Both the position numbers and the translations under genes were made by a program. Under the pieces are notes generated by a model, which was not told where the DNA came from, searched no databases, and saw only the letters and a program-made list of their open reading frames with translations. This document shows, piece after piece, positions 5,688-25,532 of a DNA stretch of 27,887 nucleotides; within the stretch, counting starts at the first letter, position 1, and each line of letters opens with the position of its first letter. Source of the DNA: a bacterium (lineage in GTDB: Bacteria; CSSED10-310; JAJRTK01). The DNA lies in assembly GCA_024278345.1 (NCBI GenBank), contig JAJRTK010000172.1, positions 1 through 27,887 on the forward strand. Reading direction: 5' to 3'.

Positions 5688-6647
5688 TCAGTCCAGATCT
5701 TCGATGACCCATTTTCCCCGCTCCTTGATCAGAGTGAAGACGCATTCCGATCCATCGCCGGTGATACAGGGGTAGCTCAGGAATGCCTTGTTTCCTTCCA
5801 GGCGAAATGCATCCTTCGCCAAGCGTCCTTCGATCCGTGCGGCGATCCGGGTAATTTGGGATTTCCCGCGCTCAAAAATAAGCTGGAGCACGGGCGTTCC
5901 CTTCGGATCTTTGGCGTTCCGAAAACTGGCAGCCCAGATTCTCATGAAGCCATCGAGGTCGTTTCCGCGGGTGGTGATGACGAAGCGCCGGGCCGTTTCG
6001 TAAGGGGTTTCCTCTCCATGTGGATTTGCTTCAACCGCAGCTTTTTCCGCTGTTGGTGAGGGCGCGGCCGTGGGCGGAGTGGTGGGAGTCGCTTGGACGA
6101 TTTCCGTGGGAGTGTCCGGCGGAGTGGTGGGAGTCGCTTGGACGATTTCCGTGGGAGTGTCCGGCGGAGTGGTGGGAGTCGCTTGGACGATTTCCGTGGG
6201 AGTGTCCGGCGGAGTGGTGGGAGTTGTTTGGCTGGGTTCGGCATCAGCGATCTTGAACCAGGACCACTGGCTCGTGAGGGTTCCATCATTGGCCGTGCCG
6301 GAGAGCATTGGCCCGGTCAGGCGTCCCTTAAAATGGACGACGGCCTTGGGATCGAGGTCGGCACATTTTTCGCCGCCGCGCCAATCTGATCCTACGTCAA
6401 ACGCGAGGTTTTGGCCGTCGAAGGTTGTATTGCAGAGGGGCATTTCCTTCGCACCAAAGACCGAAATACCACCGAGCCAGGTTGTCTTCTCTTGGTGGAA
6501 CTGAATGGTCGCAAGAAGTTGTTCGCCGGTTTCAAGTGTAATAGGCCCCTGCCACTTTCCCGCCAAGGGGCTGGCCGCGGATGCCTGAGATAGGGACAGG
6601 AAGAGGGCCAAGAGTGGGATGGATCGCTTCCAGAATTGCTTCCGCAT
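5688..6647 (-). CDS. Exported two-domain protein with a Thr/Pro repeat linker
   Basis: This is a 319-aa protein. The start is fixed by AAGGAG (6655-6660 on the minus strand) 7 nt before ATG 6647. Residues 1-25 are a signal peptide (ending 'SQASA-ASP'). Residues about 27-132 form a compact beta-rich domain ('LAGKWQGPITLETGEQLLAT') that looks lipocalin-like, with Cys at 72 and 95. Residues 141-200 are a Thr/Pro linker made of three identical 15-residue units plus a partial fourth. Residues about 215-319 resemble an NTF2-like or DUF4878-type domain ('YETARRFVITTRGNDLDGFM', ending 'ERGKWVIEDLD'). No catalytic residues stand out. It is convergent with the upstream operon and divergent from the response-regulator gene, 270 nt away. 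Function is unknown; a ligand-binding periplasmic protein is one possibility. Confidence 0.82.
   Translation of the reverse strand: MRKQFWKRSIPLLALFLSLSQASAASPLAGKWQGPITLETGEQLLATIQFHQEKTTWLGGISVFGAKEMPLCNTTFDGQNLAFDVGSDWRGGEKCADLDPKAVVHFKGRLTGPMLSGTANDGTLTSQWSWFKIADAEPSQTTPTTPPDTPTEIVQATPTTPPDTPTEIVQATPTTPPDTPTEIVQATPTTPPTAAPSPTAEKAAVEANPHGEETPYETARRFVITTRGNDLDGFMRIWAASFRNAKDPKGTPVLQLIFERGKSQITRIAARIEGRLAKDAFRLEGNKAFLSYPCITGDGSECVFTLIKERGKWVIEDLD
6076..6224 (-). repeat. Perfect 45-bp tandem repeat inside the exported protein gene
   Basis: Three exact 45-bp copies (6076-6120, 6121-6165, 6166-6210) are followed by the first 14 bp of a fourth (6211-6224). Each encodes one 15-residue Thr/Pro/Asp unit of the inter-domain linker, so copy-number change keeps the frame. 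Identity at all codon positions points to recent or ongoing expansion. Confidence 0.95.
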
Positions 6648-6917: not shown

Positions 6918-8042
6918 ATGAGCGAAAAAAAAAGGACCATCCTCTTGGTCGATAACGACAAGGCAAGCTTGGTCGAGATGGCGTCCACTCTTACGGAGGC
7001 CGGCTTCCGGATATTCTCGGCCTCCAGCTTATCCGAGGCCATGGAGCTTGCCGCTAAGAAAGAGCCTTCGATTATTATTGCGGAGATCGCGGTTCCCGAT
7101 CTCGACGGATTGGAGCTTCAAAAGGTCTACTTCGAGAGGTTTGTCTTTCGGCTGACACCGTTCATTTTTCTTAGCAGTGTCAACGATCCGGCCATCATCG
7201 TTCGGGGCTTGGAAAACGGGGCTTTCGATGTCCTGGTGAAGCCGGTTCACCCCGCTGTGCTCAAGGCCAAGGTACGGCGGTGGCTGGAGATCCGGGAGCA
7301 GATCCAGTTGGCCTCCTATGGAGGATCATTTGAAGGAAACCAGTTTGCCCGCGTGCTGAACTTCTGTCGCCGCCGCAAGCTGAATGGACTCCTAGTGGTC
7401 ACGAGTTCGACCGAAACCGTGCATCTCAAGCTCATCAAGGGTGAGGCGGAAGAGCTTGCGTCTGATCCGGCATTGATGGACAGGATTTACGGGATGTCCC
7501 GCGGTCGTTTTTGGATCATGCTTCAGGTTTCTCGTGAGCTCGCGGGGAAGGTCATCCGGTCGGTCTCGGCTCTTGGTTCCGCCCAGCAACGTGGGTTTCT
7601 CTCGTCGTTGAAGGTCGGCGGGAAGTTGTATGAGATCCAGACGGAGCTTCTGGTGAAGCCAGAGCCCAGAATCCAGTCGTCGGTTTTCATCAAGGGCCAG
7701 CTTCTGGACAACCAAGATGACCCAATCGACCTGCCCATCACCATCAACGATTTGGAGTCGAAGATCCTCCGGCTCCATCGCAAAGTGGAAGCGAAGGTGC
7801 GCAAGGAGGGGGAGGCCCGGGGCAAGAAGGCCGTTCGGGAGATTATTGATGGAAGCTTGTTCGAGACGGGTTTCGACGCTTTTGAAGCGGGGGACTATCC
7901 AAAGGCCATCGCTGTCTGGAGCGAAGCGCTAAGAAAGAAACCCACCAGCCAGTTCTTGACGATTCACATTCAGCTTGCTCGGCAAAGGCTGGGAGACACA
8001 GCAAACCAAAGGGCTGAGAAACAGGGAAAGATAGGACTTTAG
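6918..8042 (+). CDS. Response-regulator-like protein with Glu at the phospho-acceptor site and a DUF4388-like domain
   Basis: This is a 374-aa protein; ATG 6918 follows GGGGTAGG at 6901-6908. Residues 5-122 form a CheY-like receiver: 'ILLVDND' (Asp12, with Asn13 in place of the second acidic residue), switch Ser86 in 'FIFLSS', and the conserved Lys109 in 'VLVKPV'. At the phosphorylation position the motif reads 'IIAEIAVPDLDG', giving Glu56 instead of Asp. Residues about 133-190 match the N-terminal part of DUF4388/PATAN-type domains ('GSFEGNQFARVLNFCRRRK', then 'LKLIKGEAEELAS'). The C-terminus (about 310-365) has a TPR-like helix pair ('FDAFEAGDYPKAIAVWSEAL'). There is no DNA-binding domain, so output is probably by protein contact. 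The Glu may mimic phosphorylation, making a receiver insensitive to a histidine kinase; no kinase gene is nearby. A terminator follows directly, so it is the last gene of its transcript. Confidence 0.88.
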   Translation: MSEKKRTILLVDNDKASLVEMASTLTEAGFRIFSASSLSEAMELAAKKEPSIIIAEIAVPDLDGLELQKVYFERFVFRLTPFIFLSSVNDPAIIVRGLENGAFDVLVKPVHPAVLKAKVRRWLEIREQIQLASYGGSFEGNQFARVLNFCRRRKLNGLLVVTSSTETVHLKLIKGEAEELASDPALMDRIYGMSRGRFWIMLQVSRELAGKVIRSVSALGSAQQRGFLSSLKVGGKLYEIQTELLVKPEPRIQSSVFIKGQLLDNQDDPIDLPITINDLESKILRLHRKVEAKVRKEGEARGKKAVREIIDGSLFETGFDAFEAGDYPKAIAVWSEALRKKPTSQFLTIHIQLARQRLGDTANQRAEKQGKIGL

Positions 8043-8355: not shown

Positions 8356-10368
8356 ATGACCAGGGAGAGAACGATGAGGCGTTGGGCAGGGATTTGCTTT
8401 CTTTTGGCGTTGGGACTCGGGATTCCGGCCGCCGCGAATTCTGGCAATCAAGCTGGGAAAACCCTTGTTTCCCAAGGAGATCATGGGAGTGGAGGACGAT
8501 CTGGCGTAGATGTTGAGGCTCGCGAAGTTGTTCGGGAGGAGCGGACAGTCTACGTGCCCTTCCACCGCCTTGACGAACTGCTTGGCCCCGAATCGAGGGC
8601 GGTTGTCTTGCCGTATGAACGATTCCTGGAGCTTTGGGGCGCTTTGAGCCCAAGGGGAGTCGATGAAGAGGTGGAGGAGGCGCCGCCGGTAGACGTTCTG
8701 GTGGCTTCGGCGAAATACAGAGGAAGAGTCACCGGAGGGATCGCACAGTTTACTGGGACTTACCGGATCGAGGTGCTGAAATCGAGTGGCTACGCCAAAT
8801 TCCCTCTCCTTTTGCAGCGGGTGGCTGTGACTCGGGTGGAGCTGGATGGCCAGGTGGCCCTTGTGAATTCCATCAAGGGAGGGATGGAGCTTTTTGTGCG
8901 AGGCGCCGGTGCCCATGAATTGGTTGTGAGCTTTAGTTCTCCCGTACGGAGAGAGGGCAAGAAAAGCCGGGTATCCGTTGATCTGCCCCCAGTCGCCATG
9001 GCGTCACTGGAACTGGAGATTGAAGGTGCGGCCTTGGAGATCTTCTCGCATCCGATGGCCGTGGCATCCTTGGAAGCTGCTGGCGCGACGACCATCGCCC
9101 GGTTTTCCGTGGGCGGGCTTTCGGATGTCGAGATTTCGTGGCAGCCTCAGGCGGCGAAAGTCGTTGCGGCGGAGACCGCTCTTTTCGTCACATCGACACA
9201 AATGTTGTCTGCTGGGAAGGGCGCCATCAGGAATGACTCGGCTTTTGACCTGCAGATTGCCCAGGGGTCGGTGGAACGTCTCCTTGTGGAGTTGCCCCGG
9301 GATTTCACGCCGCTTTCGGTTGAGGTGCCTGGCCTGAAAGGCCGCCGAGCGGAGGGCCGGAATCTAGTTTTGGAGTTTGAGGCTCCTCAGACGGGGAAGA
9401 TTTCCTTGAGGATCATGGGCGAACAGATCTTGCCGAACCTGGGAGAGGCTCCTGTTCAGGCGCCGATTCTTCGTCTACGGCAAGCTGTCCAGAGGGAGCG
9501 GATTTTCACGGCGATTCTTGAAGCGCCTGGAGTCAAGCTCTCGGCCAAGGCGGAGGCTGGAGCGGTAGAGGTCGATTCCAGTGAGCTGCCCCATGGGCCT
9601 CGGAAGCGAGGAAGGATTCTTAGGAGTTTCTTGTTCACGGCCTATCCCGGCCGTGCGGATCTTGGCGCCAAGGCACCTAGTGTGTGGCTGCAGGTCGAGA
9701 AGCTCGAGCCCGAGATCCAAACTGAGGCAGAAACTTTCCTAGAGGTCTATGACGATCATTTGGAAGCGGTTTTCTTTATGAACCACCGGATTCGGAGGTC
9801 AGGTCTGTTTTCCGTTGCCTATAGGTTGCCGGCGGACCTTCGGGTGACAGAGGTCGGTCCCGAGGATCTGGTCCGTGGCTTCCGGGTAGAGGCAAAAGGC
9901 GCCGTGCAAACCGTGACAGTCGAGCTCAACAGGAAGGCCGAGGACCATTTGTCGCTTCGGCTGGAAGCGGAGGCCGAGCGGTCTGCAGCGGATGAGGCGC
10001 TGGTGGTCCCAGCCATCGAGACGTTGGGGGCCAAGAAACAAAGAGGAGTGGTGGGTCTGGCCGTGGGCACGAGCTACGACGCGCGGATGGGTAAAAGCGC
10101 CGGGCTCTTTTCCATGAGTGTCAAAGAGCTGCCGGTGTCGAGGTTTCCTCAGTCTGGACCTCGCCCCACGGTCCTGGGATACCGGTACAACGCGCTTCCC
10201 TATTCTGGGGGAGTGGTCATCCAACGAAAACAGCCGAAAGTGACCGCCGAGGTGGTGGAGCAGGTTTCGGTGAGTGAGGATCGCCTGAGAATTACGGCGA
10301 CGATTCACTACAAGATTCTCTATGCTGGGGTTGACCGGCTGGCCATCGAGATCCCCGCGGATGTGTAG
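8356..10368 (+). CDS. Unit 0, N-terminal part: exported beta-module protein ending at an in-frame TAG
   Basis: This part has 670 residues. ATG 8356 or ATG 8374 can start it; the latter has AGGGAG 6 nt upstream. Residues 1-28 are a signal peptide ('AGICFLLALGLGIPAAANS'). Residues 64-200 are a conserved N-terminal region ('VYVPFHRLDELLG', 'VLPYERFLELW', then 'AKYRGRVTGGIAQFTGTY'). After it come repeats of a roughly 85-residue all-beta module at about 272-356, 456-540 and 630 onward. Each has a strand pair, an 'LPxD/G' turn and a 'VxG'-type strand. The third module is cut after 'LAIEIPADV' by TAG at 10366. The same frame continues at once with the missing half of the module, so this is probably a nonsense-interrupted gene, a readthrough gene or a sequence error. 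As it stands, the product would be a soluble periplasmic fragment without the membrane anchor. The family is not recognised by name. Confidence 0.8.
   Translation: MTRERTMRRWAGICFLLALGLGIPAAANSGNQAGKTLVSQGDHGSGGRSGVDVEAREVVREERTVYVPFHRLDELLGPESRAVVLPYERFLELWGALSPRGVDEEVEEAPPVDVLVASAKYRGRVTGGIAQFTGTYRIEVLKSSGYAKFPLLLQRVAVTRVELDGQVALVNSIKGGMELFVRGAGAHELVVSFSSPVRREGKKSRVSVDLPPVAMASLELEIEGAALEIFSHPMAVASLEAAGATTIARFSVGGLSDVEISWQPQAAKVVAAETALFVTSTQMLSAGKGAIRNDSAFDLQIAQGSVERLLVELPRDFTPLSVEVPGLKGRRAEGRNLVLEFEAPQTGKISLRIMGEQILPNLGEAPVQAPILRLRQAVQRERIFTAILEAPGVKLSAKAEAGAVEVDSSELPHGPRKRGRILRSFLFTAYPGRADLGAKAPSVWLQVEKLEPEIQTEAETFLEVYDDHLEAVFFMNHRIRRSGLFSVAYRLPADLRVTEVGPEDLVRGFRVEAKGAVQTVTVELNRKAEDHLSLRLEAEAERSAADEALVVPAIETLGAKKQRGVVGLAVGTSYDARMGKSAGLFSMSVKELPVSRFPQSGPRPTVLGYRYNALPYSGGVVIQRKQPKVTAEVVEQVSVSEDRLRITATIHYKILYAGVDRLAIEIPADV
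10366..10368 (+). other. In-frame amber codon splitting unit 0
   Basis: TAG is the only stop in frame between 8356 and 12036. A gap-free alignment to unit A residues 601-624 pairs 'LAIEIPADV', the stop, then 'EFVDIEGDSIQEKV' with 'VQVVLPSGT', Gly610, then 'RKIRIEAPGIQERV'. The stop therefore sits inside a conserved module, not at a domain boundary. A single C-to-T change from CAG (Gln) would create it. Confidence 0.9.
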
Positions 10369-10374
10369 GAGTTT

Positions 10375-12036
10375 GTGGATATCGAGGGAGACTCAATCCA
10401 AGAGAAAGTGCTCCGCGCTGGAAAGAACAAGAAGAAGAACCAGTGGCATATTCGGCTCCAAAAAAGAATCCTTGGCGATTATCAGCTCCGTGTCCGGTTT
10501 GAAAAGGCGATGGGGGAGATCCCCGTAGGCAAGGGGTCACTGGTTCCCGTGCCGGGAATACGGATCGTGGGGACCGAGCAGGAACAGGGTTGGATTGCCA
10601 TCAGCAAGCGGCCAAACCTTGAGATCGAGCCTGTGGTCCGAGCCCTGGAGCCCGTCGATCCCAAAGAGCTTCCCAGCGTGGCCCATGGGAGCCAGGTCTT
10701 CCTGGCCTACCGCTATTTGAAGCACCCGTGGACCCTCAATCTCAAGGTGACTCGTCACGAATACGAGGCGGTCTTGACGACCATCATCCAGCGCGCCCAC
10801 TTCGAGACCGTCGTTTCCGCCGAAGGCGCTTCCACGACGGAGTTGATCTTGATGGTCCAAAACAACCAGCGGCAGTACTTGGAACTGAGGTTGCCGGGCT
10901 TCGGTTCGGAGGCAGAGGCCAAGATCCTGAGCCTTACCGTAGCCGGAAAACCCGTTCGACCCGCTCGCCGGGGCGACGGGACTACGATGATCCGCATGAT
11001 CAAGTCGGCATCCGCCAAAGAAGCCTTCCCCATCCGCATGGTCTACGAGTCGAAGGAGCGCGCCTTTTCCTTTCGATCTTCCTCCCATGAGTTTGTATCG
11101 CCGGCCTTCTTGGACATACCGGTTTCCAGAACGACCTGGACGGTTTATCTTCCGTTTGGCTTCAAGCACTATTCCTTCGGGGGAAACTTGCGCCCGGTTC
11201 GGCAGGGTGCCCACGGCTGGGCTCGGACGATGGCTGCGATGCCCCGTGAAATCCGAACGCCCGGCTTTGGCGAAAGCCGCGCTGGGCTGAGGCCTTCCAA
11301 GGTTAGGCTCGGTGTGAAGAAACCGGCCTTGAAGGAACAAGATCAGGCAGGTGCGGGAGTCTTGCCTATCGATGTCAGCCTAGTGGCCGAGGGGCAGTCC
11401 CTTAGTTTTTCGAAGCTCGGCGGGCAAGGCCAGCTTCGCATCGATTCCATGTCTGAGCGTTTGTACTACGCAATCCATTTTGTCTTGTTCGTGCTTGCCA
11501 TCGTGATTTGCGTGGGCATCGGGAAAGGCAGGCTACTTCCGGGGCGGCCGGGTATTGGGATAACCGCCTTGGTGGTGGCCGTACTCCCCGTGTTCGCCAG
11601 CCCACTGCTTCCCATGGAATGCCAGCCGGGTCTCGACATGGTGTTCGCCGGTTCTTTGCTGACAGGGCTTGTCTGCTTGATCCTGGAGAGTTTCCGGCGT
11701 TTGCGGTCCTTCGCCGCGGAACTGCTGGACGTCACCAAGGGTCGCTTCGGTGGCGGCTCCGGTGATGGCGGCACGATTCGTGTTGTGGCGGGCGCCGATC
11801 CTCGCGCTTCCTCGGTGGCCGAGGCGGAGACGGAACCTTCCGTCAAGGGGCAGGAGGCAAATGGCCAGGAGGCTCCGCCTTCTTCTTCCCCGGAGGTCAC
11901 ACGCGAGGAGGAGTCAAATGAACTGACGACCCCTGATGGGAGCGGAGAGGCAGAGCCACAAGAACAGGCTCGTTCCAAGAGGAGCCGCAGCCGTTCACGC
12001 CAACGCGGAAATAAGGGGAAGGGGGGGCAATCGTGA
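10375..12036 (+). CDS. Unit 0, C-terminal part: beta modules and membrane anchor, continuing past the TAG
   Basis: The first start codon after the TAG is GTG 10375; AGGAG at 10367-10371 is only 3 nt away, too close for efficient initiation, and no signal peptide is present. From here the part has 553 residues. It completes the interrupted module (1-45), then carries another module (about 135-227) with 'AGKPVRP' at 190-196, and 'FVSPAFLDIPVSRTTWTVYL' at 240-259. The pre-membrane strand 'LPIDVSLVAEGQSLSFSKL' (330-348) precedes three likely membrane helices (363-384, 394-412, 420-440). The tail is acidic, then basic (RSKRSRSRSRQRG). All these motifs recur in the same order in both halves of the next protein. 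The stop overlaps the next gene's GTG by 4 nt, so the two are probably translationally coupled. Without readthrough this fragment would lack an export signal. Confidence 0.78.
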   Translation: MDIEGDSIQEKVLRAGKNKKKNQWHIRLQKRILGDYQLRVRFEKAMGEIPVGKGSLVPVPGIRIVGTEQEQGWIAISKRPNLEIEPVVRALEPVDPKELPSVAHGSQVFLAYRYLKHPWTLNLKVTRHEYEAVLTTIIQRAHFETVVSAEGASTTELILMVQNNQRQYLELRLPGFGSEAEAKILSLTVAGKPVRPARRGDGTTMIRMIKSASAKEAFPIRMVYESKERAFSFRSSSHEFVSPAFLDIPVSRTTWTVYLPFGFKHYSFGGNLRPVRQGAHGWARTMAAMPREIRTPGFGESRAGLRPSKVRLGVKKPALKEQDQAGAGVLPIDVSLVAEGQSLSFSKLGGQGQLRIDSMSERLYYAIHFVLFVLAIVICVGIGKGRLLPGRPGIGITALVVAVLPVFASPLLPMECQPGLDMVFAGSLLTGLVCLILESFRRLRSFAAELLDVTKGRFGGGSGDGGTIRVVAGADPRASSVAEAETEPSVKGQEANGQEAPPSSSPEVTREEESNELTTPDGSGEAEPQEQARSKRSRSRSRQRGNKGKGGQS

Positions 12037-15000
12037 AAGCCTACCATCGCGGGTGGAGCTGTTTGGTCAGCCTGGTGATGGTGGTGTCTTGCTCGGTCCA
12101 GGCTGCCCCCCTGGAGCGTTTGCGCCACATTCTGTTGCCAGAAGAGCAATTTTATCGCCTGGGAGAAAAGTATCCCAGCGGCCTGTTTTTGGATGAGCGA
12201 GACCTCAACACTTTGGAACGGCGAGTCGAAGAGGCGAGATCCGCGGAGGAGGTGCCGGAGGCCGCCAATCGCTTTCCCCTTTTCATGGCTGCCGCCTCGT
12301 ACGAAGGCGTCCTGCTTCCCGGGGTCTTAAGATTGCGGGCTCTGTTGGATCTCCAGAGTGACAGCGAGGGCTGGCAGAGCCTGGATCTACCGCTCATGGG
12401 ATCGATTCTCGCCGCGGATGTCATCGTGGGCGACGCAGCCCTGGCGCGGGTGGGAAACCATGTTCGTGTTTTTGCCCAGGGACCCGGTCCAAGGCGTCTT
12501 GAGTTGTGGCTCGATCTTCCTCTTCAGGAAGTGAACCGCGGACAGGAAGCCACGTTATTGCTGGCTTCGCCCGGGCGGTTGATCTTGAAATTGCCCGGTT
12601 CCATACGCCCGCTGGTATCCGGAGTTCCGCTGGAACCCATCCAGCGCGATCCCGATGGTTATGTCATTCCTCTTGCACCGCGACCGTTTCGCGTAAGGCT
12701 GGAACCGCGGAGCATCCTCGTTCGGCAGCCGCAGGTGGAGCAGCGAGGCCGGCACCTCATGCGTATCGAGGCCAGCAAGATCGTTGGGAGCCATCAAATC
12801 GAGCTCCGTTCGTGGTCGGAGCCGGTGCGCTCGTGGACCTTGCCGCTGCCGGAAGGGTGTACCGTTCAGGATGTTCGCGGCCCCGATTTGCAGGATTGGA
12901 GCGTGCGAGATGGTGCGCTCTTCGTCACTTTGGCTCGGGGCAAGGAGCTTGTCGAGCTGGAGATCCAAACCTTTTCGCCGATTGATCGACTGTACGAGGG
13001 TTCTCTTTCGATTCCACTGGTCCGGGATGTTCGTTGGCGGACAGACATCGTCAACGTGAGCTGGGCGCCAGAGCTTTCGGTCCGCTTTCGTCGTAGCGGA
13101 GGCAGTCTCCGCCTTCCCGTGCTAGGAGAGGCCGGTGGCAGTGGGCGCTTCTTGCTGCCCTCCCCGGACTCGTTTGTCGGCGCGGAAATCCGGAAACGGG
13201 AGAGCCGGCAGTCCGCGGTTCTTCGGAGTCTATACCGCGTCACCGAAGAGAAGGTCGTCATGACCTCCACGTTGCTCCTGGAAACCGATGGTCGCCTGCC
13301 TCGGGTGGCCGAGATCCAGCTGGACAAGAGGGATGCCTTATTGGAGCTTTCCGTCGCTGAGCTCCCAGGAGCTGTTTGGGACAGCTCTAGTGTTGCCGAA
13401 GATAGGCTACAACGAGTTTCTATCGATCTACCACGGGGACGCACCGCACGTTTGGAGTTCCGAACAGAGAGGCTACTGAGTGAGTCGATCTTGGCCCATG
13501 GAAGTCTAGATTTGGAAGTGTCGCCGCCGGTGCTTTTGGGCGGCGCCGATCTCAAGAGCGAGGTGGGGCTTGCCGCGGACAAAGGTCTGCAGATTTCGTT
13601 GCTTAGGCGGCAAGGGCATTTTCCCATCGATGTTGGTTCTTTCGGACAGGCGGCCGGAAGTCCCGTGGTTTACGCTTTTCGTTCAGCCGGTGATGCCGAT
13701 GCCATTCAATTCTCCGTATCGAAAGTTGTTCCCCGGCTAGAGGCGGAGACAACTACGTTTGTTCATCTGACGGACGTAAGGCTGGAAATTGTATCTCAAG
13801 TTCGCTTCCATATCCGCGAGGCTGCCACCGACCGGGTACAGGTTGTTTTGCCATCGGGCACTGGCCGTAAAATCCGCATTGAGGCACCTGGTATCCAGGA
13901 ACGAGTCTTGGAGAGTGGCGTGGATGGCGACATCTGGACGTTGCGTTTAAGGGAAAAAGTCATGGGCGAGATTTCGGTGATTGTCGCCTTCGACCGTGCC
14001 ATGCCTGATCTTCGGCGACAAGTTGTGAAAGTCCCGGAAGTCGGTGCTGCCGGTGTCGCTTCGGAAAAGGGAACGCTGTTGTTTGAAGTGGCCGACCACA
14101 TGGCGCTTCGCATCATCGGGATCGAGGGGCGCAAGCTGGAGCTGGAAGAGCTTCGAACCGAGAAATTCTATCAGCCCACGGACCGAGTGCTTGCAGCGTA
14201 CCGAACTCTGGCCAGGGCCTACGAGTGCCAGTTGGAGATCGTTCGGTACGAGCCTGAAGCTGTCATCAGCGCTCTTGCCAGGCGAGCAACGATAAAAGTC
14301 AGCATCTTGCCAGATGGCTTGGTCCGTTCGGAGGCGGCCTATCAATTGAATAACGCCGGCCAACAGTTCCTTTCCTTGCGCCGCGGCTCGGAGATGCGCC
14401 TCTTCAGCACGCTCATCGACGACGAACCGGTCAAGCCATTCAAAATGAAAGATCGTGTGCTCATTGCCCTGAGGACGGGAAAACAAGAAGTTCGACTCAG
14501 TTTCGAAGAGCGCTTGGGCGAGGCTCGCTGGTTTGATGGCGTGCGTCTGGTCGCCCCGGATATCGGGGTTCCAGTTCTGGAGACCGTGTGGGAGGTTCAT
14601 CCTCCCGCCGGCTTCGAGGCGTATTCCCCCGAAGGCGCGAAAGTCGGTATTTTTGCCGAGCCGAGGTTTGTCGGAGTGGCAGTGAGGCAGATCATCAAGC
14701 TAGGCATGGGTTTGCTGATGCCTCCTTTCTACGAGCAGCCCGACCGGTGGGAGGTCGAGCAGTTTGTCGAAAAGAATGGCCTTCGGGAGAAGGAGGATCT
14801 GTTGGACGAAGATGATTTGCGAGCGCCGCAAGCAAAGTCCGTAAGAGATGACGACAAGCGGCCGAGGCCGAAAAGAAAGCTCGTGAAAGGCAAAAAGAAA
14901 GACTCTTTTCTGGGAAGAGTAGGTGGGAAAGGCGGCGGGCCGGCGCTGGATTCGGTTCGCCCGCCGGACACAGGTAGGCGCTCAGGCGTGGGAATGCTCT

Positions 15001-18000
15001 CTTTGGACATCGGCTTCGTGAGCGATACGCCAGCCATTCATGCGACTCTGCAGGATGGGCGGCGACCTCTCCATTTACGGATGATCCGCACCGACGTGCT
15101 GGACAGAATTCGCCTCTATCTCGTGTTGACCATCGCCCTGGCCAGTGGCCTGCTGGTTGGTCTTGCTCGTCTTCGCCACTGGTTTGCCCAGTTCTCCTGC
15201 TTACTCTTTCTCTATTTCCTGCCGGACTTGCTGGGGGCCTGGATCGTCCCCTTGGCCAACGCCGCCAGCGGGGGAGTCCTGTTGGGGATGGTCTTGGGTC
15301 TGGCTTCCGTCCTTTGGAGGAACCTGGCCTCGGGCCCTGGAACAGCGGCTTTGTTGGCCCTTTTCCTGGTTGCCGCGGGTGCCCACGCGAAGGAGAGTGG
15401 GGAAGTGACGACGGTCTACCATCCCTACGAACTCCGCCAGGGCAAAATCCTGGAGGGCGACAGGGCGTTTCTTTCCAGGGCGGACTTTGATCGCTGGTTC
15501 GATGACGGGGAGATCTCGCCAGTGGTCTTTCCAAAGCCACCCCTTAATTTCACAGTCGTTGCAGTGGATTGTTCGGGGGAGATCGATGGGAACCGCGCAC
15601 ACCTGGAATGGCGTCTTGAATTGGATTTTCTTACCGATGGCTGGGTCGAAGTCCCCATCGGGATCAGCGGTCTGATCCTGGAGACTTTGTTGGACGGAGA
15701 GCCAGTAGCCCTACGCTCCGAACCCGAGATGGTCCTTGTGGCAAAGGGCCGCGGTAGACACGAGTTGATCGTGAAGACAGAGGTTGCCGACGAGGAATCA
15801 GGGCCGCGAGGGACTTTTAGGCTCCATGTTCCACGCGCAGTTGCCGGCCGCCTGAGGCTGAAGATACCCGATGACATCGAAGTGAAGACAATCCCCGCAA
15901 CCCTAGCCCAAGTCGTGCCCATCGATGGCGGCAGAGAGCTTCGGATTGTGGCGCAGGGTACTGATTTGCTGGTGAAGACAGCGCCCAGGCTTACGGAGCT
16001 AGGGGGCGGAATCCGCGTCGAAAACTGGTTGTTGGTGACACCGCTGCCAAGCTACTTTCAGATCGAGGGGCGGGTTTCGTTGGAGGATTCCTCGGGCTTG
16101 CCGGGATCTCTGGAGATCGAAGTGCCAGCGGTGCTTTCGGTACGTTCCATACGTGCTCGGGGGCTGTTGGGTTGGTTCCAGGAGGGAGGCTCGCTTCGGC
16201 TTAGGCTGGAGCCGGGGACCAAGCGGTTGGAGCTCAACCTCGATGGCGCCATGGATGTCGCTGACAGGCTAGATTTAACGCCGCTGAGCCTGCCCGGCGG
16301 TGTGCCGGTCCACGGAGGTCTCCTGGTCCTTGGAGGGGCCGCCATGGAGATCGGCCTTGTGGGCAACCGCGGCCTGGAGAGGGTTGAGCCTGAATCGCTG
16401 CTTCGTCGCTGGCCAGCGGAAGTCTCTTCCGCTGCCCTGAGAAAGCACCTTTCCAACGGCCAGATCAAATGGGCCTTTCGGGCTGATGGAGCGGAGTGGG
16501 ACCTGTCCCTGGTTTCCAGGGGCGGGCGTGAACGGGCGAACTGCCGCCCTACGATTAGCCTTCGTGTCGAAGAAATGGGCGTCCACGCAAGGATCGTCCA
16601 AGAGTGCCAAGTGACGGATTGGCCGGTGTATGACCTTGCCTTGTCGATGCCTGACGGCTGGAGGCTGCGGAAAGTAGAAGCAGATCGGCCCCACCTCTGG
16701 ACAAGCCATTCCACGGGATCGGGAACGCTTCTGGAAACAGAGTTTCCCCAGGGACTGCTGGGGAAAGTTACCGTGAGCTCCCTCTGGTCGTTTTCGGCCG
16801 GGTTTGAACTTACGAGGGGTGTGGTGGAGACCCCGGCCTTTGAGTTGCCAGACGCGGAAATTCTCCCCGGATTTCTGGGGCTCTCTTCACCTCCAAGCCT
16901 GGAGATTGTCCCCAGCCAGTCCATGGCGTTGACCGCGCTCGATTCCGGATTTCCCAATGGCGCAGCCTCTCCTTGGCCAATCCAGCAGGCCTTTGCCTTT
17001 AGGACTTTGCCCCGCGGTGAGGTCCGGGTAAAGCTCCGGGAGTCCCGAGCCAGCAGCTCGGTGGCCGAGTTCATCAAAATAGGCGAAGCCCAGTTGGAGG
17101 GAAGTGCGCTCCTGCTGTTGGATGCCGGGCCTCCGGGAATCGAGCGCGTCCTTTTCCTGGCACCAAGGAGGATTGCCGGCAGCATCGAGATCACGGGCGA
17201 GGGCGTGCGCCACATCGGGCGGAAGGTCGTCGAGAATGGCGTCGAGTTTGAAATCGAGTTCCAGCGCCCCGTTGCTACACTGTTGCCTCTGGAAGTCCAC
17301 TGGCAGACAAAACTCGACCTCCAAGAACCGGTTCTCATCCCAAGGCTACAGGTCTTGAGCCCGGCGGCGACAAGCTCTTATCTATTCGTCGATACAGTTC
17401 CAGTCGTACTGGCAACCATCATCGAAAGCTCCGATCTCGAAATGGGGCCAGACCTTGATAAATTGCCAGCTCTTCCCGCCGGCGTATCACTGGATCAGGT
17501 CCGCTGGATCGTCCGGTATCGCGGGCCCAAAGGTTCGTTGACACTCCGCGTGGAGCGCCCGGAGACCGAGGAGATCCTCGAGGCCATCATCGATAGCGTG
17601 GAGCTCACATCGGTGGTGGCTCCGTCGGGGCTTTGCCGAACCCGAGCCGTTTTTGAGCTCCAAAACCAAACCGAACAGTTCTTGGAGGTCACACTACCGC
17701 AAGGCGCGGAGCTCTGGAGTGCCTTGGTGGCGGGACAGCCTGTAAAACCCGCCAAGCCTCTGGAAAAAAGTTCACCAAAACATCTGATCCCTCTCATCCA
17801 GCAGAGCGCCGGGGACTTGTCCATGAGTGTCGAAATCGTCTACGTCCTCAATCTGCCTCTCGAGGAACTCTTGGGGAACTTCGATCTCGTGGCACCCAAG
17901 GTGGAGAATATCCCCGTAGAGAAAACCTTGTGGACTCTTCATCTGCCCAGGGGCCTAAGAGCTGAGTTCGAGGGTGGTTTCCAAAGGGCTTCCCAGGGAG

Positions 18001-19355
18001 TCCTGACGACAGAGAAGCTCCTGGACGTTGTCGATCAGCAGCAGAAGCTCTTGCGAATGCTTCAATCAGGAGAAGCAGTGGCCCAAGGCAAGCTATCCCA
18101 GAACCTCCAGGATCTTGAAAAGCGCTACAATCGACTGAACAGCCTAGCCATCTCCCAACTGGGAAGCTACCGGCGCCAAGATACTATGCCTGCGGCGGTG
18201 AAACGGGAATCCGATGCTTCTCAACGCCTGCAAATGGGACAATCGGCTTTCGCCACCAACGAGGCGCAACTTCGCATGCTGGTGGCCCAGTCAGCTCCAG
18301 CCCCCCCGGCCCTGAGCTCAGGTCGGACCGGAAAGGCCGGAAAATCCAGGGCTCCAGCAAGAAAATGGGTGCTGAAAACAAAAAAACGGAAAGATCGACC
18401 GACCATAGTTTACTATGATACGGGCGCCATAGATGAAGTGACGGTGCAGACGACCTCCAATCTCGTGGCCAACGCCCCAGCGGATAAGAATCTTGGGGAT
18501 GCTCGTGAACAGCAACAGGTGCAGCAGGCTTATTCCAACCTGAATCGCTTCTTCGGCGATAAGGAAGTCGCTCAGACAGTCGGTTCTGACGAAGTGATCA
18601 TGCAGTACAAGCCCGGCGTGTTAGAGCCCATGGATAGGCTCGACGCTCGTGTAGACGGGAACGCCATGGGCTATGCCCAGAGCGAAGAAGAAGGTCTTGC
18701 CGAAAACGTTGTGGGAACAGAGTCTCCCCTGTTGCGACTCGAGGGGAGCATGAACCGCCAAGTTCTCGCTTCATCACTCGGGGAAAGCAAGGAACAGAAG
18801 GGCCGCAGGGCCTCACTGAAGGCAACTGCGCCGGGGCCGATGAGTCCCGATGCCATGCCGAGGGAGGTTTCTGATCCAAAGCAGGAGCTGGCGGCCAGTG
18901 CCGGAGAACGCAGGCCTGGCGGGGCAGAAGGAGCCCGCTCCGGGACGAAGGAGTGGGAAGACAAGCCCATGGTCTCCGTGGCACGGCTTTCCAGGAGTCG
19001 GCAACAGGGTTTTGTTTCCCTGGAAATCCCTTTCCCGGTCCAGGGTCGGGCCTACTTCTTCAAGAAGCTCAAAGGAGGCGGTTTACTGCAGGTTCGCTAC
19101 ACATCGGAAATCGTGTGGCAACGGGTTCGTGCCGCCGGTTTCCTGGCCGTGGGGCTCTTGTTGTTGTGGGGTTTTTGGTGGTTGTCGGAACGGCTTTTGA
19201 GGTCGATGGGCTGGGTCGCCAACTGGTTCGTCACGGCTGCTGCTCCCCTTTCCGTCGCCTTTCTGATTCTCTTTGCCCTGACCTGGGTCCCCCTCTTTTT
19301 CTTGGCGGCCATCCTGGAGCTCTTCGTCTTGGTTGTTCGATCTCGAAGGAGGTGA
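12033..19355 (+). CDS. Giant 2440-aa envelope protein made of two fused paralogous units (A and B)
   Basis: GTG 12033 overlaps the upstream TGA (GTGA) and follows a purine-rich AAGGGGAAGGGGGGG stretch. Residues 1-25 are a signal peptide; 'MVVSC' at 16-20 also fits a lipobox, so it may be a lipoprotein. Unit A (about 26-1118) has an N-terminal region ('LLPEEQFYRLGE', 'AAASYEGVLLPG'), beta modules near 240-315, 399-480, 570-656 and 740-827 with 'DEPVKPFK', then 'LVAPDIGVPVLETVWEV' (839-855), 'LSLDIGFVSD' (989-998) and four hydrophobic segments (1026-1118). The last resembles a signal peptide ending 'AGAHA-KES'. Unit B (1120-2440) repeats the order: 'FLSRADFDRWF', modules, 'GQPVKPAK' (1901-1908), 'LVAPKVENIPVEKTLWTL' (1952-1969), a coiled coil (about 1990-2045), a low-complexity region, 'VSLEIPFPVQ' (2328-2337) and three membrane helices (2367-2437). 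It has no enzyme motif. It is probably a periplasmic, inner-membrane-anchored structural or binding protein; the role is unknown. Confidence 0.88.
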   Translation: MKAYHRGWSCLVSLVMVVSCSVQAAPLERLRHILLPEEQFYRLGEKYPSGLFLDERDLNTLERRVEEARSAEEVPEAANRFPLFMAAASYEGVLLPGVLRLRALLDLQSDSEGWQSLDLPLMGSILAADVIVGDAALARVGNHVRVFAQGPGPRRLELWLDLPLQEVNRGQEATLLLASPGRLILKLPGSIRPLVSGVPLEPIQRDPDGYVIPLAPRPFRVRLEPRSILVRQPQVEQRGRHLMRIEASKIVGSHQIELRSWSEPVRSWTLPLPEGCTVQDVRGPDLQDWSVRDGALFVTLARGKELVELEIQTFSPIDRLYEGSLSIPLVRDVRWRTDIVNVSWAPELSVRFRRSGGSLRLPVLGEAGGSGRFLLPSPDSFVGAEIRKRESRQSAVLRSLYRVTEEKVVMTSTLLLETDGRLPRVAEIQLDKRDALLELSVAELPGAVWDSSSVAEDRLQRVSIDLPRGRTARLEFRTERLLSESILAHGSLDLEVSPPVLLGGADLKSEVGLAADKGLQISLLRRQGHFPIDVGSFGQAAGSPVVYAFRSAGDADAIQFSVSKVVPRLEAETTTFVHLTDVRLEIVSQVRFHIREAATDRVQVVLPSGTGRKIRIEAPGIQERVLESGVDGDIWTLRLREKVMGEISVIVAFDRAMPDLRRQVVKVPEVGAAGVASEKGTLLFEVADHMALRIIGIEGRKLELEELRTEKFYQPTDRVLAAYRTLARAYECQLEIVRYEPEAVISALARRATIKVSILPDGLVRSEAAYQLNNAGQQFLSLRRGSEMRLFSTLIDDEPVKPFKMKDRVLIALRTGKQEVRLSFEERLGEARWFDGVRLVAPDIGVPVLETVWEVHPPAGFEAYSPEGAKVGIFAEPRFVGVAVRQIIKLGMGLLMPPFYEQPDRWEVEQFVEKNGLREKEDLLDEDDLRAPQAKSVRDDDKRPRPKRKLVKGKKKDSFLGRVGGKGGGPALDSVRPPDTGRRSGVGMLSLDIGFVSDTPAIHATLQDGRRPLHLRMIRTDVLDRIRLYLVLTIALASGLLVGLARLRHWFAQFSCLLFLYFLPDLLGAWIVPLANAASGGVLLGMVLGLASVLWRNLASGPGTAALLALFLVAAGAHAKESGEVTTVYHPYELRQGKILEGDRAFLSRADFDRWFDDGEISPVVFPKPPLNFTVVAVDCSGEIDGNRAHLEWRLELDFLTDGWVEVPIGISGLILETLLDGEPVALRSEPEMVLVAKGRGRHELIVKTEVADEESGPRGTFRLHVPRAVAGRLRLKIPDDIEVKTIPATLAQVVPIDGGRELRIVAQGTDLLVKTAPRLTELGGGIRVENWLLVTPLPSYFQIEGRVSLEDSSGLPGSLEIEVPAVLSVRSIRARGLLGWFQEGGSLRLRLEPGTKRLELNLDGAMDVADRLDLTPLSLPGGVPVHGGLLVLGGAAMEIGLVGNRGLERVEPESLLRRWPAEVSSAALRKHLSNGQIKWAFRADGAEWDLSLVSRGGRERANCRPTISLRVEEMGVHARIVQECQVTDWPVYDLALSMPDGWRLRKVEADRPHLWTSHSTGSGTLLETEFPQGLLGKVTVSSLWSFSAGFELTRGVVETPAFELPDAEILPGFLGLSSPPSLEIVPSQSMALTALDSGFPNGAASPWPIQQAFAFRTLPRGEVRVKLRESRASSSVAEFIKIGEAQLEGSALLLLDAGPPGIERVLFLAPRRIAGSIEITGEGVRHIGRKVVENGVEFEIEFQRPVATLLPLEVHWQTKLDLQEPVLIPRLQVLSPAATSSYLFVDTVPVVLATIIESSDLEMGPDLDKLPALPAGVSLDQVRWIVRYRGPKGSLTLRVERPETEEILEAIIDSVELTSVVAPSGLCRTRAVFELQNQTEQFLEVTLPQGAELWSALVAGQPVKPAKPLEKSSPKHLIPLIQQSAGDLSMSVEIVYVLNLPLEELLGNFDLVAPKVENIPVEKTLWTLHLPRGLRAEFEGGFQRASQGVLTTEKLLDVVDQQQKLLRMLQSGEAVAQGKLSQNLQDLEKRYNRLNSLAISQLGSYRRQDTMPAAVKRESDASQRLQMGQSAFATNEAQLRMLVAQSAPAPPALSSGRTGKAGKSRAPARKWVLKTKKRKDRPTIVYYDTGAIDEVTVQTTSNLVANAPADKNLGDAREQQQVQQAYSNLNRFFGDKEVAQTVGSDEVIMQYKPGVLEPMDRLDARVDGNAMGYAQSEEEGLAENVVGTESPLLRLEGSMNRQVLASSLGESKEQKGRRASLKATAPGPMSPDAMPREVSDPKQELAASAGERRPGGAEGARSGTKEWEDKPMVSVARLSRSRQQGFVSLEIPFPVQGRAYFFKKLKGGGLLQVRYTSEIVWQRVRAAGFLAVGLLLLWGFWWLSERLLRSMGWVANWFVTAAAPLSVAFLILFALTWVPLFFLAAILELFVLVVRSRRR
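15342..15392 (+). other. Signal-peptide-like segment inside the giant ORF, marking a gene-fusion joint
   Basis: Residues 1104-1120 read 'TAALLALFLVAAGAHAK', a hydrophobic core followed by Ala-His-Ala, as at a signal peptidase I site. It follows the membrane helices ending unit A and directly precedes the N-terminal region of unit B. GGAGG at 15316-15320 is the nearest Shine-Dalgarno-like sequence, but no well-spaced start codon follows it. Confidence 0.7.
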
Positions 19356-20910: not shown

Positions 20911-21114
20911 GGGTTTTTGGAACATTCCAATTCTAGCTAGGCTCGATGTCTGGTTCCAATCTAGATCTGAATCGATACTCGGACTCAGCCAGATTAAACC
21001 CGTCATTGGCCGGACGCAAACTCCGCGTAGGAGCGCGGCTATTTGCCCATGTGTGAGAGTGCGGCTGCATGAGGACTTGCGCTCAAGCGGAGCTGATTGT
21101 GTAGTGGAGCCATG

Positions 21115-21771
21115 ATGAAAGACCTATCGGAGCGAAAATGGTATGAGGAGTGCCTTGACGGGAAAAATGCCGCTTGGAAGCGTCTTCGCGACTTTGTTTT
21201 TCGCCTCCTGCGCTACAAGCTTCGGAGCGAACAACGAGCTGAGGAGTTTTGCCAGCAGATTCTGCTTCAGCTCTTGGAGCGAGACCGGAGTGGCGTCCTG
21301 AACCTAACCAAATGCCGTGATCCAAACCGCTTCTCCTCGTTTTTGCGAGCCTTCACCTTTAGTCACATGATCGATCTAATTCGGGCGGATGATCGACGGA
21401 CTCGGGGCCAACGTGATTTTGACGCCAAGACGATTCGACTTCCCAGGAATCCGGGTCCTGAAGCCCGAGCAGAGCTTGTGGAAGAGCTCAACTTGCGTTT
21501 TGCCGCTATCTCCAGGGTTTCCGAGCCTTGTAGAACGATTCTCCGGCAGGATCTCCAATTTCGAAGCGGCTTGACGGATTTCCAGTCCTATGGAGAGCTT
21601 TTCGAGAGCATACGGACTCTCGAGGCCGTCAAGACGCACAGGAAGGAAAGCTACAACCTCGATAAGTTCTACGTCGATTTGCACAGATGCCGGAAATATC
21701 TCATGCGCCAGTTGCAAAAAGCGGTCAAGCCCCAGACAGGTGGCGTTGCAAACGATTGTGGGGTTGGCTGA
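21115..21771 (+). CDS. Divergent sigma-70/ECF-like protein
   Basis: This is a 218-aa protein. GGAG at 21106-21109 is 5 nt from ATG 21115, so this start is preferred over ATG 21112 or TTG 21097. Residues about 8-98 follow the plan of sigma region 2: 'CLDGKNAAWKRLRDFVFRLL', then 'RAEEFCQQILLQLLER' (the usual 'aeDlvQevfl' helix), then 'NRFSSFLRAFTFSHMIDLIR' (the usual 'F.aWL..ia.N..iD..R'). The C-terminal third has helices ending 'VDLHRCRKYLMRQL', which resembles the end of region 4, but the helix-turn-helix before it is not recognisable. It could be a true but divergent ECF sigma factor or a degenerate relative with another role. No anti-sigma gene is adjacent. Its promoter probably lies in the 214-nt region shared with the TAXI gene; no clear elements were seen there. 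Confidence 0.6.
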   Translation: MKDLSERKWYEECLDGKNAAWKRLRDFVFRLLRYKLRSEQRAEEFCQQILLQLLERDRSGVLNLTKCRDPNRFSSFLRAFTFSHMIDLIRADDRRTRGQRDFDAKTIRLPRNPGPEARAELVEELNLRFAAISRVSEPCRTILRQDLQFRSGLTDFQSYGELFESIRTLEAVKTHRKESYNLDKFYVDLHRCRKYLMRQLQKAVKPQTGGVANDCGVG

Positions 21772-22211: not shown

Positions 22212-25200
22212 TTGTCCCCTGCATCGACTGCCCGATTATCGAGCTTTTCAGCTCCGAAGAGTTGGTCGTTTTGGATTCTCTTTGCTCTGCCCCTCCTGTT
22301 GCCCCACTCCGCGATGCCGCAAGAGGGAGAAAGGGACGCAGTGGAAATTGCCGCCGTCTCCGCCCAAGGGTCCAGAAACGTTGAGCTTCCAGGTATCGAG
22401 CTGCCGTTGGCCGGCGCCGGTCTTGCTCTCCCGGCAGCGGTCATTCTCCCGATCATCAGCGAGTTCGTGACGGTCGATGCCGCAGGCGAATCCACGGAGT
22501 TCGTGGAGATCTTCGGCGTTTCCAAAGCCGACTATTCGGCGGTATCGATTGTGATCCTGGAGGGTGATGCAGCCGAAAATCCCGGTGTTGTCGATGCCGT
22601 TTACACCGCTGGACTCGCTGATATTGCGGGGTTTTGGTCCACCGGCTACCGCTCCGCGGAGATAGAGAACGGCAGCCTCACGATCCTGTTGGTCTCCTCG
22701 TTCACCGGTGCCGTTGGCAACGACCTTGATACCAATGATGACGGAACTCTTGACTCTACCCCGTGGACCACACTCCACGATTCCGTTGCCGTGAGTGATG
22801 GGGGACCAGGAGATCAGAGTTACTCCACGGTCGTCTTAATCCCCGGATATGATGGGGTGGGCGACCGGCCCGATGGTGCATCGCGCTTCCCTTACTATCT
22901 GGATACGGATTCCGCCTCCGACTGGGTTCGAAACGACTTCGACGGCCAGATCTTCTTCGATCCCCTTGGTGGCACCGTTACCGTCGGTGAGATGTACAAC
23001 ACGCCAGGTTTTGTCAACCGAGCTCTTCCTGAAAACTACTTTGGTTCCGTGGACGCCTCTTCTGCCTCGACGCTCCGGACGACCCTCCATGCGGCCATCG
23101 CCAACCATATTCGCTTTCCCTATTCGTCGTCCGACCCCGATACGTGGAACATTCTGGAGGAAGCCGACGAGAATCCGCTCAATTCGGGTCAGATCCTGGA
23201 TGTCTACCGGAATGCGGCTTACACGAAGGTGGGAGGTGGAAACGCCAATTACAACCGGGAGCACAGTTGGCCTCGTTCCTATGGGTTCAAGGTCGATGGC
23301 ACCAGCAACTATCCCCACAACGATTGTCACCATCTCTTCCTGTCTGACAGTGGCTACAATTCGGCTCGGGGAAGCCGCCCCTTCGCGACCTGTGGCGCAT
23401 CTTGCACGGAATATTCGACTTTGGCCAACGGGGGAGCCGGCGGAGGAAGCGGAACCTACCCGGGCAACTCCAACTGGCAGGGGACCTCAGACGGTCCCAG
23501 CGGCAGTTGGGAGACCTGGAACGATCGCCGAGGAGATATCGCTCGCGCCCAGTTTTACATGGACCTGAGATACGAGGGCGGAACCCATGCTGTCACGGGG
23601 GTTACCGAGCACCAGTTGATTCTCACCGACAACCGGTCTCTCATCGTGACATCGAGCTCAAACTACAGTCCGGCCTACATGGGGCTCTTGAGTGTTCTTC
23701 TTCAGTGGCATCTGGACGATCCCGTGGACGACAAGGAACGTGCCCGCGATGAGGCGGTCTACCGTTGGCAAGGCAACCGAAATCCCTTCATCGAGCACCC
23801 GGAATGGGTCGATTGTATTTACCAAGGGATCTGCACGGCGACGACTCCGACGCCGACTTCCACCCTTGGACCACCGACTCTAACACCCACGATCACACAG
23901 ACACCCACCATCACATCGACTCCGACGATCACGCCGACTCCCACCATTACGCCAACACTTGGGCCTCCCACGTTAACTCCAACTCCCACGCCGACGCTGC
24001 CGGGCGGTGCTTGCGGTAATGAGCTATTCTTCTCCGAATACATCGAAGGTTCGAGTCTGGACAAGGCCGTGGAGATCTACAATGGAACCGGCGGCTCCAT
24101 CGACCTCACAGCCGGAAACTACGTGGTGGAGATCTATGCCAACGGTTCCGCCAGCGTGGGCAATAGCATTTCCTTAACGGGCTCCGTCTTCGATGGAGAT
24201 GTCTTCGTGCTGGCCAATTCCGGTGCCAATGCTTCGATTCTTGCCCAAGCGGATCAGACATCCGGTTCCGTGAGCTTCAACGGGAATGACGCAGTCGTTC
24301 TGAAACGTGGCGGGGCCGCCGGCACGATCCTCGATGTAATCGGGCAGGTTGGCTTCGATCCCGGTTCGGAATGGGGAATCGGGGATGCCAGCACCAAAGA
24401 CAACACCATTGTCCGAATGCCGAGCATCTTTGCCGGCGACACCAATCCCGGCGATCCATTCGACCCCGCCGTGGAATGGATCGGATTCCCCCTGGGAACG
24501 ACCTCCAACCTGGGGTCCCACGCGATTGACTCCTGTCTCTCCTCGACGCCCACAAGTACTCCAAGTCCATCTCCAACATTCACTCCGCCACCAACGGCAA
24601 CTTTGACAGCCACTCCCTCTCCGACCTTCACCGCCACCGCAGTCGTGACCTCAACTCCCACCCCAACTCCTACAGCCACCGCCACGCCGCCAATCGACAG
24701 GGGAGACTGCAATGACGATTTCTCCGTGGATGCCGGCGATCTTTCCGCGTTGCCTTTGGAGATCTTCGATGGAGACGGGACTGATCCCGCTGCGGCACCA
24801 GGTGGCTCTTTTGCCGGGCACACCATTGGCTGCAATGCCAATGCCGATGCCCTGATCGATGCCGGGGATCTCTCATGCGCGGTCTTGCTCATTGCCAATG
24901 GCCCGGGATCCTGCGCCGTACAAGCCCAGGGAAGCTCGGTGGCGATCCAACTGTCGAAGCTCCCCAGTGGGCGTGCCTCCATCAGCTTTGCCAAGGCCAA
25001 CCAACAAGAGGCAGCCAATCGAGTCACATTCGAGCTTCGCCTCAGTTCCGATGGACAACCCACCAACTCCATGACTTTTGCTCTGGGTTATCGCACACGC
25101 TGTCTGAGCTTTGACGAAGCCGACTCGAACCTCGACGGTCTTCCCGATGGGCTCTTTTTCACGCTTCCCGCCGGGTGGTTCGGTTCCGCCAATCTCCTTA

Positions 25201-25532
25201 GCAGGGGGCAAATAAACGAGATTCAGGTGACAATCCTTCAGCCGTCGGCTCCGCTGGGGCAGATTCCTGACGGGACCATCGCTCTTTTCTCCTTTGAAGA
25301 TTCCTGTCAACTCAGTGATGCCAATTGGTCTTCCGATCTCGGTTTTATCGATCCCTTGGCTTCCTTTGGAGGCAGTTCAGGGGAAAGCTTGCCTGGAGTC
25401 GCCAGTCCAGCACTCCAGCAGTCCGTTCCCGCGAGGGCTGGGTGGTATGAGACCGGACTTTTGTTCCTGCTCCTTCTTCTGGGCGGTGCTGTTCTGGGGC
25501 GCGGAAGGCGGCGATACATGGCGAACCGCTGA
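22212..25532 (+). CDS. Secreted multi-domain endonuclease I with lamin-tail, dockerin-like and anchor regions
   Basis: This is a 1106-aa protein with a TTG start. Residues 17-36 are a signal-peptide core. Residues about 78-220 resemble a lamin-tail-like domain ('ISEFVTVDAAGESTEFVEIF'). Residues about 285-535 are an endonuclease I (EndA/NucM family) domain: 'YNREHSWPRS' (347-356, catalytic His351), 'DCHHLFLSD' (371-379), 'NSARG' (383-387), 'RRGDIARAQFYMDLRYEG' (439-456) and 'NPFIEHPEWV' (524-533). Family members cut DNA without sequence specificity. A Thr/Pro linker (542-598) leads to a second lamin-tail-like domain (603-770), another linker (777-827), and two dockerin-like Ca2+ loops (Asp832/Asn834/Asp836/Asp843 and Asn875/Asn877/Asp879/Asp886). 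Residues 905-1045 are a beta domain, perhaps cohesin-like. A membrane helix (about 1079-1096) and an Arg-rich tail (GRGRRRYMANR) end the protein, a sorting-type anchor. It probably degrades extracellular DNA at the cell surface. Confidence 0.92.
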   Translation: MSPASTARLSSFSAPKSWSFWILFALPLLLPHSAMPQEGERDAVEIAAVSAQGSRNVELPGIELPLAGAGLALPAAVILPIISEFVTVDAAGESTEFVEIFGVSKADYSAVSIVILEGDAAENPGVVDAVYTAGLADIAGFWSTGYRSAEIENGSLTILLVSSFTGAVGNDLDTNDDGTLDSTPWTTLHDSVAVSDGGPGDQSYSTVVLIPGYDGVGDRPDGASRFPYYLDTDSASDWVRNDFDGQIFFDPLGGTVTVGEMYNTPGFVNRALPENYFGSVDASSASTLRTTLHAAIANHIRFPYSSSDPDTWNILEEADENPLNSGQILDVYRNAAYTKVGGGNANYNREHSWPRSYGFKVDGTSNYPHNDCHHLFLSDSGYNSARGSRPFATCGASCTEYSTLANGGAGGGSGTYPGNSNWQGTSDGPSGSWETWNDRRGDIARAQFYMDLRYEGGTHAVTGVTEHQLILTDNRSLIVTSSSNYSPAYMGLLSVLLQWHLDDPVDDKERARDEAVYRWQGNRNPFIEHPEWVDCIYQGICTATTPTPTSTLGPPTLTPTITQTPTITSTPTITPTPTITPTLGPPTLTPTPTPTLPGGACGNELFFSEYIEGSSLDKAVEIYNGTGGSIDLTAGNYVVEIYANGSASVGNSISLTGSVFDGDVFVLANSGANASILAQADQTSGSVSFNGNDAVVLKRGGAAGTILDVIGQVGFDPGSEWGIGDASTKDNTIVRMPSIFAGDTNPGDPFDPAVEWIGFPLGTTSNLGSHAIDSCLSSTPTSTPSPSPTFTPPPTATLTATPSPTFTATAVVTSTPTPTPTATATPPIDRGDCNDDFSVDAGDLSALPLEIFDGDGTDPAAAPGGSFAGHTIGCNANADALIDAGDLSCAVLLIANGPGSCAVQAQGSSVAIQLSKLPSGRASISFAKANQQEAANRVTFELRLSSDGQPTNSMTFALGYRTRCLSFDEADSNLDGLPDGLFFTLPAGWFGSANLLSRGQINEIQVTILQPSAPLGQIPDGTIALFSFEDSCQLSDANWSSDLGFIDPLASFGGSSGESLPGVASPALQQSVPARAGWYETGLLFLLLLLGGAVLGRGRRRYMANR

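Follow-up and report, generated by a model that had tools for sequence, protein, structure and literature searches.

The window, by which we mean the whole analysed stretch of 27,887 nucleotides, carries on its forward strand at 8356-19355 three related units, here called 0, A and B, with identical domain order. A first-pass annotation of this DNA had described three homologous tandem units with shared ordered motifs, and both points are borne out. BLASTP among the units gives E-values of 1e-28 (0 and A), 1e-21 (0 and B) and 7e-12 (A and B), a profile built to take in relatives from further genomes scores 756 bits on unit A and 802 bits on unit B and matches unit 0 piecewise, and the VAP...W and pre-membrane strings are present as quoted there. 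The description of three separate units requires some amendment, as A and B share one open frame of 2440 residues. Similarly, the proposed GTGA coupling holds for 12033-12036, which joins unit 0 to the A+B frame, but not for A and B, which are a single frame. The PV(K/R)P motifs of A and B lie where they had been placed, but that of unit 0 begins at 10951, six bases later than the 10945 first given. The features are as follows, with N, M and C denoting the modules described below.

8356-12036, forward: unit 0, with a signal peptide; 1226 residues with TAG read as a residue (profile hits, BLASTP to A and B)
about 8374-9663, forward: unit 0 N and M1 (profile hits)
about 9688-10227, forward: unit 0 M2 (profile hits)
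about 10219-10750, forward: unit 0 M3 (profile hits)
10366-10368, forward: in-frame TAG within M3 of unit 0 (sequence)
10951-10962, forward: PVRP motif in the unit 0 C module (sequence)
after M3, forward: unit 0 C module, linker, hairpin (about 11359-11450) and membrane helices (profile hits)
C-terminal end of unit 0, forward: disordered, low-complexity, partly basic tail (sequence)
12033-19355, forward: A+B open frame, 2440 residues, sharing GTGA with the end of unit 0 (sequence)
12033-15392, forward: unit A (AlphaFold model, DSSP, profile hits)
about 12282-12707, 12735-13196 and 13203-13622, forward: unit A N, M1 and M2 (AlphaFold model, DSSP, profile hits)
13665-14246 and 14271-14624, forward: unit A M3 and C (AlphaFold model, DSSP, profile hits)
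14427-14438, forward: PVKP motif in the unit A C module (sequence)
14634-15010, 15036-15089 and 15090-15390, forward: unit A disordered linker, hairpin and membrane helices (AlphaFold model, DSSP)
15342-19355, forward: unit B, starting with a membrane helix that also serves as signal anchor (profile hits, motifs)
about 15348-16511 and about 16533-17033, forward: unit B N with M1, and M2 (profile hits)
about 17013-18000, forward: unit B M3 and C, followed by a long linker (profile hits)
17739-17750, forward: PVKP motif in the unit B C module (sequence)
about 19017-19110 and from about 19137, forward: unit B hairpin and membrane helices (profile hits)

Unit 0 is one frame broken by the single TAG at 10366-10368. 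Recoding of TAG was considered and rejected: as far as can be told the codon is a genuine stop in this organism, as neighbouring genes of the window (1-978, 836-2575 and 6918-8042) terminate with it. Since the counterpart of unit 0 is also intact in three other genomes (G142, G279 and G167, with frames of 1134-1207 residues), the TAG is a nonsense mutation or an assembly error, the gene being either broken or mis-assembled here. The codon was treated as Q for alignment only. The genome is assembled in 550 contigs and is about 88% complete.

Domain architecture and distribution of the family

Each window unit has a signal peptide, and iterated profiles give the order of the rest as N, M, M, M and C modules, then a linker, which is disordered, a short hairpin and two to four membrane helices. 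Compact relatives of about 750 residues consist of N, M, C, linker, hairpin and membrane helices, and the number of M modules per member varies from 1 to 3. The three module types are mutually homologous (hhalign E-values of 4.5e-7 for N/C, 1.5e-5 for M/C and 5e-4 for N/M). The beta modules of some 85 residues noted earlier are each about half of one of these larger modules, which span 120-180 residues and number five per unit. Within the C module, Asn428 and Pro511 are invariant and Gln432 nearly so among 53 members.

Linker length varies widely, the shortest having fewer than 100 residues and the longest more than 1000, and the hairpin that follows it is conserved. The structure 1z1w aligns to residues 401-654 of a compact-member model, a span that comprises both the C module and the hairpin, which suggests that the hairpin belongs to the C module and that this module is split by the linker. 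Such an arrangement would explain a conserved hairpin beside a variable linker. The first genes of three loci (L101, L111 and L058) have linkers resembling secretin STN/N-domains and the secretin beta domain, below cut-off, and also TPR-like stretches. The second-unit linker at L066:10192-14364, in G167, contains a segment resembling a pseudopilin (T2SSG at E 0.0032, under the cut-off).

The membrane anchor that had been proposed is supported for the window's units, but it is not family-wide, as myxococcal and planctomycetal pairs stop at the hairpin without a membrane helix. In some archaeal relatives (L130-L133), read by eye, additional membrane helices separate the hairpin from the C module. 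The layout of a long unit alone followed by two fused units is found in the window and in G142 (1175 + 2724 residues), G279 (1175 + 2696) and G167 (1130 + 2552). Fusion has taken another form in G003, where units 1 and 2 are joined and unit 3 is separate.

A search with a single protein found few relatives, and an initial scan of genome contigs with one member (P0003) gave no match. With an eight-unit profile the family was detected in 27 of 386 sampled bacterial genomes, the window's own included; among eight genomes of the window's phylum it occurs in the window's genome, in G003 and, weakly, in G001. Of 297 genomes centred on an Altiarchaeota genome, 16 also gave a match, which was strong in six. 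A scan of named genomes by two peptide patterns, which yields a list of carriers and not a census, found 39 loci, with carriers among Schekmanbacteria, Thermoanaerobaculia and other Acidobacteriota, Myxococcota, Planctomycetota, Verrucomicrobiota and Altiarchaeota. The myxococcal carriers include the isolates Plesiocystis pacifica SIR-1 and Enhygromyxa salina. One record labelled Klebsiella pneumoniae (L092) carries a myxococcal-type pair and is probably a mislabelled metagenome-assembled genome. Loci usually hold two or three tandem paralogues; about a third have a single unit, some of these lying at contig ends.

The earlier statement that no named family has this plan stands. The window units match nothing in Pfam or NCBIfam, a search of the same databases with 53 members returned nothing family-wide (TPR and other matches fall in the linkers of a few members), and a 90-sequence profile matches no PDB chain. 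The family is unnamed, and it spans many bacterial phyla and one archaeal group.

Predicted structure and comparison with ribophorin I

AlphaFold models were obtained for a compact member (P0017, from G042; 90-row alignment, mean pLDDT 85.4) and for window unit A (13 rows, pLDDT 67.7 overall and about 80 in the beta part). With Foldseek, ribophorin I/Ost1 occupied the first eight rows for the compact member (E 8.5e-11 to 1.8e-8) and the first four for unit A (best E 1.5e-8), followed for both models by integrins and M1 aminopeptidases; viral structures gave no useful match. The expectation that the units share a fold is supported in part, by unit A and the compact relative, the two proteins modelled, which have the same best match. 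VIA-align gave a Z-score of 14.8 to Ost1 or RPN1 for both models, with residues 221-655 of the compact member aligned to Ost1 27-441. These alignments are flexible (rmsd 20-25 over two domains, TM-scores 0.12-0.33), indicating that in the models the domain angles differ and that the agreement with Ost1 is limited to the domain folds and their order. Single modules align with the N-terminal domains of M1 aminopeptidases and leukotriene A4 hydrolase over about 145 residues, at Z-scores of 12-13 and with an rmsd of 3-3.5 (about 3.4). The family shares this fold with the M1 enzymes but uses it as a tandem repeat, without the catalytic domain; the HExxH zinc motif is absent from all 83 units searched, and no Pfam peptidase matches any of 53 members.

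Ost1 is reported to have two similar lumenal beta domains (PMC7226087), and ribophorin I has a cytosolic C-terminal helical bundle that binds ribosomes in human and Asgard proteins (PMC11417166). The family is like ribophorin I/Ost1 (PF04597) in combining a signal peptide, tandem beta modules and a C-terminal membrane helix with the lack of a catalytic site, and two tandem beta domains of the same fold do precede the membrane helix in the models, with the large two-domain rmsd given above. It differs in its additional N and M modules, in the C module split by a long linker, in its tandem paralogues, and in lacking significant sequence similarity or any link to STT3. The helical bundle is absent, the compact member ending with its membrane helices and unit 0 having in its place only the low-complexity, partly basic tail.

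PF04597 matched none of 53 members and was not found in 16 family-bearing genomes. Comparison by hhalign with archaeal ribophorin I, using whole profiles and single domains, was not significant (best E 0.03-0.1), and HMM searches in both directions between the family and archaeal ribophorin-I-like proteins gave nothing convincing. The archaeal PF04597 proteins (L115-L120) likewise combine a membrane helix with two extracellular domains that are related to each other (hhalign E 1.5e-5), but they carry a cytosolic helical domain that the family lacks, and no sequence link connects the two groups. STT3 (PF02516), counted by presence only, is encoded by 3 of the 27 genomes that carry the family and by 34 of the 359 that do not; a search of the window's genome detected none. 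A link to N-glycosylation was rejected, STT3 being no commoner with the family than without.

By build, then, the family resembles ribophorin I, and by these tests it does not belong to it. A shared origin of the two is no more than a possibility, the sequence comparisons having given no significant link. The further proposal that ribophorin I has in this family its bacterial and altiarchaeal sister, that the ectodomain predated the STT3 complex as a membrane-anchored partner of exported proteins, and that tandem paralogues are the ancestral hetero-oligomeric form is speculative and, in our estimate, rather improbable. A 2016 survey reported no promising prokaryotic Ost1 homologue (PMC4973528), and a 2024 paper placed OST1 in eukaryotes and in TACK and Asgard archaea only (PMC11417166). 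A large family whose ectodomain has a ribophorin-type build occurs in many bacterial phyla and in Altiarchaeota, which provides concrete proteins, some in the cultured P. pacifica and E. salina, for testing the origin of the ribophorin fold.

Paralogue lineages and possible roles

A tree was built from 83 sequences comprising the last M module and the C module. First and second genes of the pairs in Myxococcota, Planctomycetota, Verrucomicrobia and L058/L059 fall into separate clades (support 0.95 and 0.99), the units of G042 and L051 pair by position, and the second G167 unit clusters with window unit A (0.92); nodes joining the window's units to their counterparts have modest support (0.38-0.92). 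With units labelled by position, 24 two-unit loci require five label changes on the tree, whereas 2000 shuffles of the labels within loci averaged 16.7 and never gave fewer than 8; four long-type loci require three against 6.0 (p 0.011). Because related loci are non-independent, these p-values say only that positions were inherited and not reinvented at each locus. Two loci with local duplications (L060 and L070) are exceptions.

On this tree the first, second and third units are separate old lineages, and so probably represent distinct subunits of a single assembly. The hetero-oligomer originally proposed gains indirect support from these lineages and rests on gene order and the tree. In our model each unit is a type-I-like membrane protein: its signal peptide directs five beta modules in series, folded like the N-terminal domain of M1 aminopeptidases, through the inner membrane, and its C-terminal helices anchor it there, as sequence and models show. 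The variable linker before the last hairpin of the C module may let the rod carry other parts while the fold is kept, as the structure alignments suggest. The paralogues, being non-interchangeable and encoded together or fused (more than once, and differently), probably assemble side by side in the periplasm as a fixed hetero-oligomer. From the build resembling ribophorin I/Ost1, the most likely role would be that of a non-catalytic holder or docking scaffold for exported or membrane proteins, a suggestion we put forward tentatively. Taken whole, the reading of the three units as diverged subunits of one extracytoplasmic assembly, acting as a non-catalytic scaffold and belonging to an unnamed family, has in our judgement about an even chance of being right. 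Weighing against it are the loci with a single unit, the pairs that end without a membrane helix, gene neighbourhoods in which no conserved partner appears, the differing domain angles in the Ost1 alignments and the modest support of the nodes that place the window's units. The same proteins offer a means of testing what tandem, non-interchangeable envelope paralogues do.

Other roles were weighed against this scaffold. The repeat build, the presence of one to three M modules, the disordered linkers and the integrins among the next Foldseek matches would all suit a structural or adhesive surface protein whose modules are mere spacer rods; the conservation of Asn428, Pro511 and Gln432 in the C module and the strict identity of the paralogues exceed what a spacer needs, however, and we consider this unlikely. 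Slightly less likely still is membership in a machine of the type II secretion or type IV pilus-like kind, with components of that machine carried in the C-module linker. Linker fragments of some relatives do resemble secretin N-domains (STN 0.0041, Secretin_N 0.0013), beside the T2SSG match noted above, and a pilin-like domain is encoded next to one family gene (see below). However, the fragments were picked by eye and all their matches lie below curated cut-offs, no secretin domain scoring above them (Secretin 0.16); the sub-threshold matches are confined to relatives, the window's own linkers having none; no genes of this kind lie among the neighbours; and searching the PDB with profiles of the tails turned up no secretin. 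Secretin co-occurrence is uninformative (25 of 25 tested genomes with the family, 50 of 55 controls), as is that of the diderm marker Omp85 (25 of 25 and 51 of 55).

An envelope sensor or regulator acting with an ECF sigma/anti-sigma pair was also considered. In L055, L108 and L113 the family gene comes directly after an ECF sigma gene followed by an anti-sigma-like one, and L110, where the terminal part of this anti-sigma/vWA-like gene lies next to the family gene, is consistent with a fourth case. The anti-sigma protein has a vWA-like region in L108 and L113, and in L055 it is fused to a DUF1559 pilin-like domain (E 7.5e-6). These are four of some 66 loci only, three of them in one clade, and the window's own sigma factor gene (21097-21771) is cut off from the units by a gene on the opposite strand, so we hold this role to be the least likely of these three. 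Apart from the ECF sigma cases, no neighbour gene is conserved at other family loci, and the earlier suggestion that the upstream exported proteins are partners of the units is accordingly unsupported. Most improbable of all is that these proteins are ribophorin I/Ost1 proper in prokaryotes, serving a protein N-glycosylation complex as an accessory subunit: the top structural match, which two independent models gave for the two modules preceding the membrane, and the Ost1-like signal peptide and C-terminal helix would favour it, but the STT3 counts, the absence of PF04597 and the non-significant profile comparisons weigh against it.

Some further genes near family members may be recorded. At L129:2310-3485 an archaeal family gene overlaps the gene after it, which has an alpha-2-macroglobulin-type MG2 domain (E 1.8e-16). 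In the window, 836-2575 encodes an exported protein with a weak LipL46 match (E 9.9e-6, far below cut-off), and 5688-6647 on the reverse strand an exported protein in which a 45-base tandem repeat (6073-6231) specifies Pro/Thr-rich repeats. The gene at 22212-25532 encodes a secreted protein with endonuclease I and lamin tail domains, Pro/Thr-rich linkers and a C-terminal membrane anchor.
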